From the NCBI GenBank assembly GCA_025655555.1, contig JAHXIQ010000001.1:248001-312000 (forward strand): a DNA stretch of 64,000 bases, in the 5' to 3' direction. Both the position numbers and the translations under genes were made by a program. The notes beneath the pieces were generated by a model. It was not told the DNA's origin, ran no database searches, and was given only the letters and a program-made list of their open reading frames with translations. Below, piece by piece: positions 47,247-50,684 of this stretch. This DNA comes from Candidatus Thiodiazotropha sp. (ex Myrtea sp. 'scaly one' KF741663). Its GTDB lineage: Bacteria; Pseudomonadota; Gammaproteobacteria; Chromatiales; Chromatiaceae. Numbering within the stretch: the first letter of the stretch is position 1; every line of letters begins with the position of its first letter.

Positions 47247-47684
47247 TCAGCTCTCAAGCCAGAAGGTCACAGGACCATCGTTGGTCAAACTGACCTGCAT
47301 GTCTGCACCGAACTCACCGCTGGCAACAGTTTGGTGGTTTTGCTTGGCTTGACGCATCAGGTGTTCAAACATTCTGGCTCCCAGCACCGGATCTGCCGCA
47401 CTTGAGAAACCAGCCCGCGTCCCCTTCTGCGTATTAGCTGCAAGGGTGAATTGGGGGACCAGAAGAAGACCACCGTCGATATCCCGTAAGCTAAGATTCA
47501 TGCGCCCCGTCTCATCGGGAAAGACACGATAGCCCAGCAGACGCTCCAGCAACCTTTCAGTGCTGGCTTCATCGTCAGTTTTCTGCACCCCGATTAATAC
47601 GACTAACCCCTGCGCAATCTCTCCCACGCAATGACCGTCGACCACCACCCTTCCTTCAGTCACCCGCTGCAATAGGCCGATCAC
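47247..47684 (-). CDS. dtd: D-aminoacyl-tRNA deacylase Dtd
   Basis: Dtd removes D-amino acids (and glycine from tRNA-Ala) from mischarged tRNAs. The 145-aa protein has MIGLLQRVTEGRVVVDG, the active-site LLVPQFTLAA (a variant of SQFTL), and the cross-subunit NDGPVTFWLES. The GTG start overlaps the pip stop (GTGA). Confidence 0.96.
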   Translation of the reverse strand: MIGLLQRVTEGRVVVDGHCVGEIAQGLVVLIGVQKTDDEASTERLLERLLGYRVFPDETGRMNLSLRDIDGGLLLVPQFTLAANTQKGTRAGFSSAADPVLGARMFEHLMRQAKQNHQTVASGEFGADMQVSLTNDGPVTFWLES

Positions 47685-48631
47685 TTAAACTCCCGGGCAA
47701 ATCTGTCAGTGGCTTCAATCAGGGCTTGTCGAATACCAGGTTCAGTTGCGGAGTGCCCCGCATCCGGGATCACCTTCAACTTACTACCTGCCCAGGCTTG
47801 GTGTAATTGCCAGGCAGAATCCATGGGGCAGATGAGATCGTAGCGCCCCTGCACAATGACCCCGGGGATACCCGCAAGCTTTGTCGCGTCCTCCAGCAGT
47901 TGATTGGGACGCAGAAAGGCCTGATTGACGAAGTAGTGGCTCTCTATGCATGCCAGGCTCAGGGCGGTATGGGGCTGAGAAAAAAAGTCGACCACCGACG
48001 CGTTGGGGCGAAGGCTGGCGGTTCGGCCCTCCCAGATAGACCAAGCTTTCGCAGCCGCCATCCGCTGCAACTCGTTATCACCTGTCAGCCTGCGATGATA
48101 GGCCTCAAGCATATTGTCCCGCTCAGCATCCGGAATCGGTGCCACGAAATCCTCCCAGTAATCGGGGAAGACCTTGCTGGCGCCGGCCTGGTAAAACCAG
48201 GCAATCTCCTCATCTCGACAGAGAAAGATCCCACGCAGCACCATACCAAGCACACGATCCGGGTGAGATTGGGCGTAGGCCAGCGCCAGCGTGGAACCCC
48301 ATGACCCGCCGAACAGCAGCCAACGCTCGATACCGAGCGATTGACGAATCGCCTCAATATCATCGACCAGATCCCAGGTGGAATTGTTCTCTAACTTTGC
48401 ATGGGGCGTGGAGCGACCGCACCCACGTTGATCGAAGAGCACCACGTGATAGGCAGCCGGATCGAAGAATCGGCGATGATAGGGCTCGCATCCAGCCCCC
48501 GGTCCACCGTGCAGAAAGAGGATGGGAATGCCTTTAGGGTTGCCTACTTGCTCGATATAGAGCTGATGCCCACCTTCTACGCTGAATTTGCTAGAGGTAA
48601 AGGCATCAACCTGAGGGTATAAGTCTTTCAT
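47681..48631 (-). CDS. pip: Prolyl aminopeptidase (proline iminopeptidase)
   Basis: The 316-aa alpha/beta hydrolase removes N-terminal proline from peptides. LHGGPGAGCEPYH provides the oxyanion hole, the nucleophile elbow is FGGSWGSTLAL, and VIPDAGHSATEPGI supplies the catalytic histidine. It starts with a clear ATG at 48631 and is coupled to dtd by a four-base overlap. Confidence 0.95.
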   Translation of the reverse strand: MKDLYPQVDAFTSSKFSVEGGHQLYIEQVGNPKGIPILFLHGGPGAGCEPYHRRFFDPAAYHVVLFDQRGCGRSTPHAKLENNSTWDLVDDIEAIRQSLGIERWLLFGGSWGSTLALAYAQSHPDRVLGMVLRGIFLCRDEEIAWFYQAGASKVFPDYWEDFVAPIPDAERDNMLEAYHRRLTGDNELQRMAAAKAWSIWEGRTASLRPNASVVDFFSQPHTALSLACIESHYFVNQAFLRPNQLLEDATKLAGIPGVIVQGRYDLICPMDSAWQLHQAWAGSKLKVIPDAGHSATEPGIRQALIEATDRFAREFK

Positions 48632-48651
48632 TTTATGAATAAAAATTTCCG

Positions 48652-48669
48652 TGTAGGAATATGCCTACA
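48652..48669. promoter_or_regulatory. GacA-type palindrome upstream of the candidate small RNA
   Basis: TGTAGGAATATGCCTACA is an inverted repeat TGTAGG-N6-CCTACA. The GacA upstream activating sequence of Pseudomonas rsmY/rsmZ genes is TGTAAG-N6-CTTACA; this differs at one symmetrical base pair. It lies eight bases upstream of a -35 candidate (TTGAAA at 48677). Confidence 0.55.
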
Positions 48670-48711
48670 GAGATAGTTGAAAATTCTCACACTCGGACTG
48701 TTAATTTTTGT

Positions 48712-48847
48712 GTAATTATTAAGTTGTCGTCATCAAGGACGTACCCCCAGGATCACTTAAGCACAGGAGGGCGTCAGGGAAGATAAGCTTTGCCAACCAA
48801 GCCGACGACTATAAGCCCGACTGCATGGAATGCTGTCGGGCTTTTTC
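48712..48847 (+). ncRNA. Candidate CsrB/RsmY-like regulatory small RNA
   Basis: This plus-strand unit contains no protein gene but has a promoter candidate (TTGAAA at 48677-48682, 17 bp, GTTAAT at 48700-48705), a strong terminator, and five GGA motifs at 48737, 48750, 48766, 48778 and 48827. The contexts include CAGGAT and CAGGAG, close to the CsrA site consensus. The fifth GGA is the triloop of GCAT-GGA-ATGC inside the terminator hairpin. A stem GACG...CGTC can form around the second and third motifs. Such RNAs sequester CsrA/RsmA. The upstream GacA-type palindrome fits. The exact 5' end is a guess. Confidence 0.6.
48813..48847 (+). terminator. Strong rho-independent terminator of the candidate small RNA
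   Basis: AAGCCCGAC (48813-48821) pairs with GTCGGGCTT (48835-48843). The inner GCAT/ATGC extends the stem to a GGA triloop, and a T-rich run TTTTTC follows. The T-run lies on the plus strand, so it ends a plus-strand transcript. The minus-strand typA reads toward it and may use it weakly. Confidence 0.8.
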
Positions 48848-48872
48848 TTGTCCGGTCGATTTTAAGTTGAGT

Positions 48873-50684
48873 TCAATCCCGAGCAGCGCGTTTGCGCTCG
48901 TGCTCCTTCAAGTATTTTTTGCGGATACGGATTGCACTTGGTGTCACCTCGACCAACTCATCATCCTCTACGAACTCCAGCGCCTGCTCCAGACTATAGC
49001 GCAGAGGTGGCGTCAGCATAATAGCGTCGTCCTTGCCTGATGCCCGGACATTGGTTAGTTGCTTGCCTTTCAGCGGATTGACCACCAGATCGTTCTCACG
49101 CGAATGGATACCGACGATCTGGCCTTCATAGACCTCATCACTCGGCTTGGCGAAGAGTCTGCCCCGCTCCTGTAGATTGAACAGAGCAAAGCCAAGCACC
49201 TTTCCCTGGCCATTGGAGATCAGCACACCATTTTTTCGCGGTGCTATCCCTCCATGGGAGGCCGGTCCGTAGTGATCGAAAACGTGGTAGATCAGCCCCG
49301 TACCCGAGGTACTGGTCATAAACTCGGTCTGGAAACCGATCAGACCACGTGAAGGAATGATGTAATCCAGCCTCACACGCCCTTTTCCGTCAGGCACCAT
49401 GTCCTTCAGATCTCCCTTACGTTCACCCAAGGCCTCCATGATGGTGCCCTGGTGATTCTCTTCCACATCCACAGTGACCTGTTCATAGGGTTCGCAGACC
49501 TCACCGTCGATCTCGCGAAAAATCACCTCTGGACGGGAGACTGCCAGCTCGAAGCCCTCCCGGCGCATCGACTCAATGAGTACGGAGAGATGCAGCTCAC
49601 CGCGTCCTGAGACCTTGAATTTCTCCGGGTCGGTGCCCTCTTCCACCCGCAGTGCCACATTGTGGATCAGTTCGCGCTCCAGGCGCTCCTTGAGCTGACG
49701 GGAGGTGAGGTATTTTCCCTCACGTCCGGCAAACGGGGAGGTGTTGACCTGGAAGGTCATAGAGACGGTTGGTTCATCCACACTGAGGTGGGGCATCGCC
49801 TCCACATGCTCAGGATGGCAGAAAGTATCCGAGACATTGGGTGCCTCCAGACCGGTCACCGCAATGATATCTCCCGCAGCGGCCTCATCCACTTCGAAAC
49901 GATCCAAACCCAGATAGCCATAGACCAGGCCGACCTTTGCCCGCTGTTCTTCACCATCGTACTTGACCACGGTGATCTGCTGGTTGGGCCGCACCTTGCC
50001 CCGAGTCACGCGGCCGACCGCAATGGCGCCCACATAACTGTTGTAATCCAGATTCGAGACCTGCATCTGAAACGGACCGTCCGGATCCACATCGGGTACA
50101 GGACAATGCTCGACGATGGTTTCGAACAGGGGTGTCATATCACCTTCACTGATACCACTCTCCAGCCCGGCGAAACCGTTTATTGCCGAGGCATAGACGA
50201 TAGGAAAATCGAGTTGTTCATCCGTGGCACCCAGCTGATCGAAAAGTTCGAAAACCTGATCAATGACCCAGTCCGGTCGTGCACCCGGTTTGTCGATCTT
50301 ATTGACGACCACAATCGGGCGTAGCCCATGTTTGAAGGCCTTCTGCGTCACAAAACGCGTCTGCGGCATGGGGCCTTCCTGCGCATCCACCAGCAGCAGA
50401 ACGGAATCGACCATGGAGAGTACCCGCTCTACCTCACCACCGAAATCCGCATGGCCAGGTGTGTCGACCACATTGATGCGGAAATCATTCCAGCGAATCG
50501 CCGTATTCTTCGACAGGATAGTGATACCCCGTTCCTTCTCCTGGTCATTGGAATCCATGACCCGTTCCACAATACCGAAGCGCTCTCCCAGCGTACCGGA
50601 CTGTTTCAGCAACTCATCCACAAGGGTTGTCTTGCCATGGTCAACGTGGGCGATGATAGCGATATTTCTGAGAGACTGAATCAC
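48873..50684 (-). CDS. typA: Ribosome-associated GTPase TypA/BipA
   Basis: TypA is a translational GTPase for 50S assembly and stress adaptation. The 603-aa protein has the G1 box [10 protein letters not shown], switch region [12 protein letters not shown]3 DTPGHADF, G4 [13 protein letters not shown], and the characteristic C-terminal domains ([40 protein letters not shown]). The start is a GTG with AGGA eight bases upstream. Confidence 0.98.

Follow-up and report, generated by a model that had tools for sequence, protein, structure and literature searches.

CsrB and CsrC of the Enterobacteria and RsmX, RsmY and RsmZ of Pseudomonas are intergenic RNAs with repeated GGA motifs, an upstream GacA/UvrY-type palindrome and an intrinsic terminator, all of which are shared by the RNA described here. 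Rsm RNAs are approximately 100–130 nt in length, and this RNA is close to that size. Csr RNAs are usually presented as sponges acting on CsrA protein, and the available text of a review contrasts CsrB/C with base-pairing sRNAs (PMC7652899). SrbA of Pseudomonas aeruginosa is an sRNA that is reported to act on rsmA expression and has a predicted duplex with rsmA mRNA, according to the available part of its description (PMC12203948). The antisense sRNA0654 of Pseudoalteromonas fuliginea is a predicted csrA mRNA regulator in a Csr-regulated genome; in the accessible text, the GGA-rich Pf sRNAs are separate from sRNA0654 and are predicted to pair imperfectly with 'a few' mRNAs (PMC11882849). Among the matches listed by our literature search, which stopped short of subscription journals and preprints, the available text describes neither the present RNA nor any CsrB-type RNA that pairs with csrA mRNA, and no such CsrB-type RNA appears in the accessible portions of PMC2375449, PMC7366521 and PMC10729762.

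The window, the 64,000-nt stretch of Candidatus Thiodiazotropha DNA analysed here, belongs to a genome (G000) of 3.98 Mb with a completeness of 98.7%. The element lies in a 241-base gap between pip (47681-48631, minus strand; the product is an alpha/beta hydrolase, and dtd adjoins the gene) and typA (48873-50684, minus strand). The window and contig L157 (Thiodiazotropha sp. ex Monitilora ramsayi L095) encode identical TypA proteins (100%). From its conservation, we conclude that the element at approximately 48723-48847 is a small RNA gene whose transcription, from the plus strand, is predicted. This extent is based on covariance-model matches, with an inferred start: model R1, built from 42 sequences (alignment A1), gives 48722-48846 at 120.7 bits (the window's sequence is part of the model), and model R2, built from 52 diverse sequences (A3), matches the window RNA at 101.7 bits.

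The RNA is closed by a stem in which GTCGTC (48726-48731, plus strand) pairs with GACGAC (48804-48809, plus strand), as indicated by covariation: 99.7% of the cells are paired, and one pair shows a CG/UA double change in 14 of 52 rows. The terminator hairpin (48815-48841, plus strand) has a GGA triloop in the predicted fold and double changes in 8 of 10 pairs of the alignment. It is followed by TTTTT (48842-48846, plus strand), which is the strong T-run claimed by an earlier, sequence-only reading of this DNA; the hairpin is absent from the output of a simple terminator scan. Closing stem and terminator together show 95.9% pairing and a covariation of 0.371 compared to 0.141 ± 0.010 in shuffles (0/500 reaching this value), far higher also than in slid registers. 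The fold of the 123-nt window RNA is moderately better than that of shuffled sequences (z -2.18; 4/200). The double changes within pairs show a conserved structure, which, along with a terminator of its own, is what is expected of a conserved non-coding RNA.

Upstream of the RNA lies a perfect 18-bp palindrome, TGTAGGAATATGCCTACA (48652-48669, no strand assigned), which matches TGTARG-N6-CYTACA exactly; the UvrY consensus given in the available part of PMC4682653 is TGTAAGN6CTTACA. Its centre is approximately 65 bp before the likely RNA start. The sequence-only reading had counted TGTAGGAATATGCCTACA, at the 5' end of its interval 48652-48847, as a stem belonging to the unit. TGTAGGAATATGCCTACA is better read as a GacA/UvrY operator, and the first ~70 bases of the interval are probably promoter instead of RNA, because a promoter is inferred from the box plus a -10-like stretch. 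This putative -10-like element (48714-48719, plus strand) was picked out by eye as a conserved AT-rich stretch in the genus sequences. A simple scan of the plus strand found no 9-of-12 sigma-70 promoter here.

For comparison, 58 distinct relatives were kept from 78 R1 matches after removal of 15 same-locus duplicates under two names and 5 weak or antisense matches. The best box site within 160 bases upstream has two mismatches or fewer in 46 of these 58, compared to 19 of 1160 shuffled regions, and three or more in 12. In 52 of the 58 it is found at -68 to -71 or at -91/-92 (44 of these with two mismatches or fewer), two spacings that differ by approximately two helical turns; the exceptions are L024, L114, L137, L031, L091 and L092. 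In the 3.98-Mb genome the operator pattern has only 2 exact sites, with 26 at one mismatch or fewer compared to 19 for the reversed control. Since the one-mismatch pattern is not rare in this genome, it is the conserved place of the box that counts. A GacA/UvrY operator upstream, as expected of CsrA-sequestering RNAs, was therefore found. The best GacA homologue (G000:C6:137320) is a LuxR-type response regulator near a UvrC-like ORF and scores 259 bits against an NCBIfam cut-off of 280; the best BarA homologue (G000:C5:397549) scores 686 bits, below the cut-off of 890.

Other box-like sites were considered as further RNA genes and set aside: a model search of 20 loci (of the 26 sites) recovered only the folK-linked copy described below. 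The second exact box site (C2:138965) and several one-mismatch sites are part of a dispersed repeat. This intergenic repeat of at least 80 bp, of which eight copies were compared, carries TGTAGTCTTTTTCCTACA or a near-match and mimics the GacA box. Its copies in this genome (L033, L034, L036, L037 and L042-L045; e.g. G000:C1:560176) have no sRNA model match and no evident common downstream gene.

The RNA carries five GGA motifs on the plus strand, two of them in CAGGA context, as the sequence-only reading had it. GGA 1 (AAGGA, 48737-48739) is seen in the sequence and the alignment, GGA 2 (CAGGA, 48750-48752) has GGA at the same alignment column in 45 of 52 rows, GGA 3 (CAGGA, 48766-48768) lies between short complementary arms in sister species, and GGA 4 (AGGGA, 48778-48780) has GGA at the same column in 49 of 52 rows. 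GGA 5 (48827-48829) is, in the fold, the triloop of the terminator hairpin 48815-48841, just where that reading had placed it. Two more GGA in 48652-48847 (at 48656 and 48695) fall upstream of the likely start. Five GGA per 123 nt are reached by 7.3% of dinucleotide shuffles and by 3.3% of the window's 123-mers. The number of GGA alone is thus weak evidence, and the case is therefore comparative; the count in a single sequence was discarded as proof owing to insufficient significance (7.3% of shuffles), and comparison was used instead.

Across the 58 distinct relatives, the RNAs contain a mean of 5.9 GGA (range 3-9), and GGA, with 340 compared to 147.6 expected (2.3-fold), ranks second to TTT in trinucleotide enrichment. 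Hairpin loops contain 112 of the 340, and GGA sites are less paired than average in 48 of the 58 RNAs (the exceptions include the folK copy of this same genome, L168). A covariance-model search for conserved GGA-in-loop positions across related genomes, which had been proposed as a check, finds GGA in the terminator loop of 57 of the 58. As the terminator stem varies in compensation while its loop stays GGA, these data point to a protein that reads the loop. Multiple conserved GGA, partly in loops, are thus present, as in CsrA-sequestering RNAs. The earlier reading had named a genome without csrA/rsmA, or loss of the GGA motifs in otherwise conserved relatives, as outcomes that would speak against it: this genome encodes one CsrA (90.6 bits), and the relatives keep their GGA motifs. 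Its assignment of the locus to the CsrB/RsmY type is strongly supported by comparison (GGA enrichment, GacA-type box and terminator-loop GGA in the 58 relatives), and the window RNA is predicted to sequester CsrA.

By DNA search, the element is present in 21 of 21 further genomes of the genus (no best E weaker than 2.1e-22) and in some of the family's other genera. Model R1 has matches in 50 of the 96 genomes of the family, 105 of the 195 of the order and 6 of 274 at class level (own genome counted); R2 matches 16 of 369 class genomes, three of which are in the family (G000, G009 and G028). Outside the family, the matches in G049, G448 and G543 were accepted (box and core are present, and typA is next door in G448 and G543). 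The G520 match has a plausible score but was rejected, since it is without the core and the csrA leader of that genome is without the motif; the remaining nine class-level R2 matches were judged by eye to be chance. When 30 of 50 named loci with the RNA pattern were run against the models, 27 matched (L125, L147 and L158 did not). Among the named carriers confirmed by a model are Ca. Sedimenticola endophacoides and other Sedimenticola, as well as symbionts of Solemya velesiana and of the tubeworms Lamellibrachia and Escarpia, and the pattern is present in many named Candidatus Thiodiazotropha records. The claim that the RNA is undescribed held against Rfam 15, the covariance models of which give no family at gathering score in the window stretch or in 11 homologous loci; CsrB, CsrC, RsmX, RsmY and RsmZ have no match up to E=10 in 48560-48900. 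SdsR is the best sub-threshold Rfam match (18.3 bits, E 0.74, gathering score 38), but this identity was rejected because the similarity is mainly in the terminator.

A second copy in the same genome (G000:C4:29551-29676) has 7 GGA and a one-mismatch box at -69, and sits between folK and a DUF1015 gene. Among the 50 named pattern loci, typA is in the fetched stretch of 38, five loci from tubeworm symbionts (L134, L142, L143, L146 and L161) have folK without typA, and L144, L152, L155 and L160 have neither; the last three are L125, L147 and L158, which gave no model match. In five Thiodiazotropha genomes (G002, G007, G010, G012 and G016; loci L017, L018, L021, L022 and L023) the RNA stands at typA in four tandem copies, all with a box-like site. 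As if decaying, the outermost of them has a degraded box (2 mismatches), 3 GGA only and an altered core.

The best-conserved part of the RNA is GCCAACCAAGC, which is no CsrA motif. It lies within a core, CTTTGCCAACCAAGCC (48788-48803, plus strand), that is complementary to the csrA mRNA leader (G000:C3:64002-64017) in a perfect match of 16 nt; the reverse complement of GCCAACCAAGC occupies G000:C3:64003-64013 and stops 72 nt short of the csrA start codon. That reverse complement occurs exactly 3 times in the genome compared to 0 for the reversed control, and GCTTGGTTGGC has only 3 exact sites genome-wide: the csrA leader, the RNA gene itself and an antisense site within an ORF. When the core-bearing half of the RNA was scored by ungapped helix, the csrA leader outscored 1110 window segments of 230 nt (both strands) with two exceptions, which score as self-complements of the RNA. 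The predicted fold of the window RNA puts most of the core in a hairpin loop. Complementarity of the core to csrA mRNA, like the GacA box, the second copy and the tandem amplification in five sister genomes, goes beyond what had been noted earlier; the csrA-pairing core appears to be what is new in an otherwise CsrB/RsmY-type RNA.

Several other features were seen in the sequences around these sites. In some genera (L071, L073 and L027) the 5' strand of the closing stem is GUCGCCAACCA, a second copy of the csrA-pairing seed. In the genus, the 5' end of the csrA leader (CCAGUC) is complementary to the ribosome-binding-site stretch (GACUGG; e.g. L001:1398-1500); CCAGUC and GACUGG form a possible switch that RNA pairing might tip, to which the folds give no consistent answer. 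Downstream of csrA, L001:1910-2745 contains, by eye, open frames in multiple phases from one tandemly repeated unit, and is probably a DNA repeat array rather than genes.

We searched 80 genomes for csrA and fetched the leaders of the 72 with a match. The 8 genomes with no csrA match (G005, G012, G026, G066, G088, G112, G128 and G132; completeness 69-99%) all carry the RNA, and several others have three to five CsrA-like matches, some of them weak (G126, G087, G032, G120 and G043). The pairing set comprised 59 genomes with an RNA sequence and a recognised csrA start; left out of the counts were G005, G012, G026, G066 and G128, for which an RNA but no csrA match was available, G010 and G017, whose csrA start the script did not recognise, and G088, G112 and G132, with neither a csrA match nor an extracted RNA. 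Pairing was scored as the best ungapped helix between the RNA minus its terminator and the leader from -200 to +30, as whole-length RNAduplex gave sprawling, unrealistic duplexes with mostly weak z-scores and was abandoned.

The core and the leader site form the top helix in 54 of the 59 genomes, with the leader site 48-118 nt before csrA. The five others are G030, the leader of which is truncated at a contig end, G057 and G120, in which the leader site pairs better with the RNA 5' end, and G075 and G520. In several same-genus relatives the match is limited to a 12-nt core. With 100 dinucleotide-shuffled leaders per genome, none reach the real helix in 31 of the 59 and five or fewer do so in 52, while at least one equals it in 28. 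More than five shuffles reach it in seven genomes (G030, G031, G032, G075, G124, G448 and G520), including G448, which has the site pair, yet not above shuffles. Across a family with free-living as well as symbiotic members (Sedimenticola, lucinid and tubeworm symbionts), the putative csrA-pairing seed is conserved, as it is outside the family in G049, G543 and, weakly, G448.

Partners within a genome fit each other better than foreign ones. In a partner permutation of 32 genomes, one per genus and with kinship ignored, own pairs score 31.6 compared to 27.1 for foreign pairs (0/20,000 reaching). Taken singly, only 3 of 32 RNAs have their own leader as the best or a tied partner, and 11 of 32 leaders their own RNA, the core being so similar from genome to genome. 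Intermolecular covariation was assessed on 31 rows (G520, which is without the motif, was dropped), with shuffles that preserve the make-up of each column. The helix has 85.4% pairs compared to 79.6 when shuffled, an absolute level that is biased upward by windows anchored on the motif, and 8 pairs have double changes. Covariation is 0.212 compared to 0.113 ± 0.012 in shuffles (0/500 reaching; 31 genomes, kinship between genera ignored). RNA and leader have changed together in G028, G049, G070, G071, G078 and G122. With kinship ignored, complementarity to a target mRNA therefore covaries, as would be expected of a trans-acting base-pairing sRNA. Of the 59 RNA-bearing genomes, 51 have the motif TGGTTGG in the 250 nt before csrA, compared to 0 of 10 genomes without a confident copy (Fisher P 1.3e-7, kinship ignored). 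These ten are G027, G064, G067, G068, G074, G035, G038, G041, G043 and G545. When 20 genomes were rescanned less strictly, 9 had matches of E <= 0.1; those among the ten were weak (G035, 0.0017; G545, 0.0035; G027, 0.051).

Reverse-complementary RNA motifs are also the same double-stranded DNA motif, and the window RNA might be a plain CsrA sponge, its match to the csrA leader being a DNA-binding site common to both genes and not RNA pairing. With one double-stranded DNA motif in both genes, shared drift could mimic covariation. Such a site would, however, sit inside the RNA, with most of the core in a hairpin loop of the predicted fold. On the csrA side, a loose -10-like pattern occurs within 80 nt before the motif in 51 of 56 leaders, and the leader motif is probably transcribed because this pattern precedes it. 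Deviations in the 11-nt core comprise 14 G-U, 4 A-C and 13 other plain mismatches; this 14:4 excess of G-U over A-C (P=0.03) argues against a shared DNA site and, as far as sequences can tell, favours RNA pairing, for which it is expected. We consider the DNA-site explanation improbable. The hairpin as merely the typA terminator on the minus strand is scarcely credible: although typA runs towards this palindromic hairpin and an antisense model match reaches 23.8 bits, only the plus strand has the T-run, a typA terminator has no use for the conserved box, start and core, and both tandem copies and a folK-linked copy exist.

If RNA pairing is accepted, the GGA motifs could be incidental to an ordinary base-pairing sRNA, a reading that agrees with a pairing core more conserved than most GGA sites and with a GGA count near chance in the window RNA alone. 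The 2.3-fold enrichment over 58 relatives, the GacA box and a terminator-loop GGA that is kept while its stem covaries make it very unlikely. The pairing might also work in the opposite direction, with abundant csrA mRNA as a decoy that traps the RNA and so shields CsrA from it. Gill symbionts have csrA as one of their most abundant transcripts: in the available part of PMC13137333 (Table 1, hypothetical proteins omitted), no listed gene has a higher median TPM in two of three hosts, and in the third csrA comes after rbcS alone; the accessible text of PMC12172469 likewise counts csrA among the most abundant in the symbionts of lucinid gills. Decoy and repression rest on the same pairing and are indistinguishable here; we hold the decoy to be unlikely, if less so than a shared DNA site.

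Our preferred reading, which we consider quite probable, is that the gene encodes a GacA-controlled RNA of ~125 nt, of Csr/Rsm type, that would both titrate CsrA and pair with the csrA leader. When a BarA/GacA-like pair is active, the RNA would be made; its GGA motifs would capture CsrA dimers, freeing target mRNAs from them, and the core (48792-48802) would pair with the csrA leader ~70-85 nt upstream of the start codon (~50-120 nt in relatives). This pairing would most likely lower CsrA synthesis, and therefore one RNA would both titrate and starve CsrA. We give repression of csrA about an even chance as the effect of pairing, the remainder being shared by activation or homeostasis and the decoy by csrA mRNA. 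In folds of 56 leaders with the site blocked, access to the csrA Shine-Dalgarno went down in 14 and up in 9; as the folds disagree between genomes, we discarded the idea that pairing has one fixed effect on it, be it hiding or freeing.

If true, a Csr RNA that pairs with csrA mRNA would add a second arm to a much-studied post-transcriptional circuit. The RNA is a candidate CsrA antagonist in lucinid and tubeworm symbionts, and as such a handle on symbiont lifestyle control. With slightly more reserve, we think it likely that it is the first member of a dual-mode class of Csr RNAs, a predicted GacA-driven CsrA sponge with a covarying csrA-mRNA seed in one interlocked circuit.

The RNA shares with SrbA a predicted pairing to csrA/rsmA mRNA, but SrbA is not described as a GGA-repeat, GacA-driven CsrA sponge in the available text (PMC12203948). 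The sRNA0654 of P. fuliginea differs in being a putative cis-encoded antisense RNA without a GGA motif, as far as its accessible description goes (PMC11882849). Copy number has been raised by duplication, as for the csrB copies of Vibrio tasmaniensis (PMC6262261, available part) and rsmX-2 of Pseudomonas brassicacearum (PMC7911923, available part); in contrast to these, four tandem copies are found in five symbiont genomes, in addition to a distant copy linked to folK in the present genome. For CsrB and CsrC of E. coli K-12, the best helices with csrA lie in the coding start rather than the leader (3 and 37 of 100 shuffles, respectively, reach them). Unlike CsrB/CsrC and RsmX/Y/Z, this RNA is located at typA or folK without an Rfam match, has a terminator-loop GGA (57 of 58 relatives), and carries a conserved core with predicted pairing to csrA mRNA.
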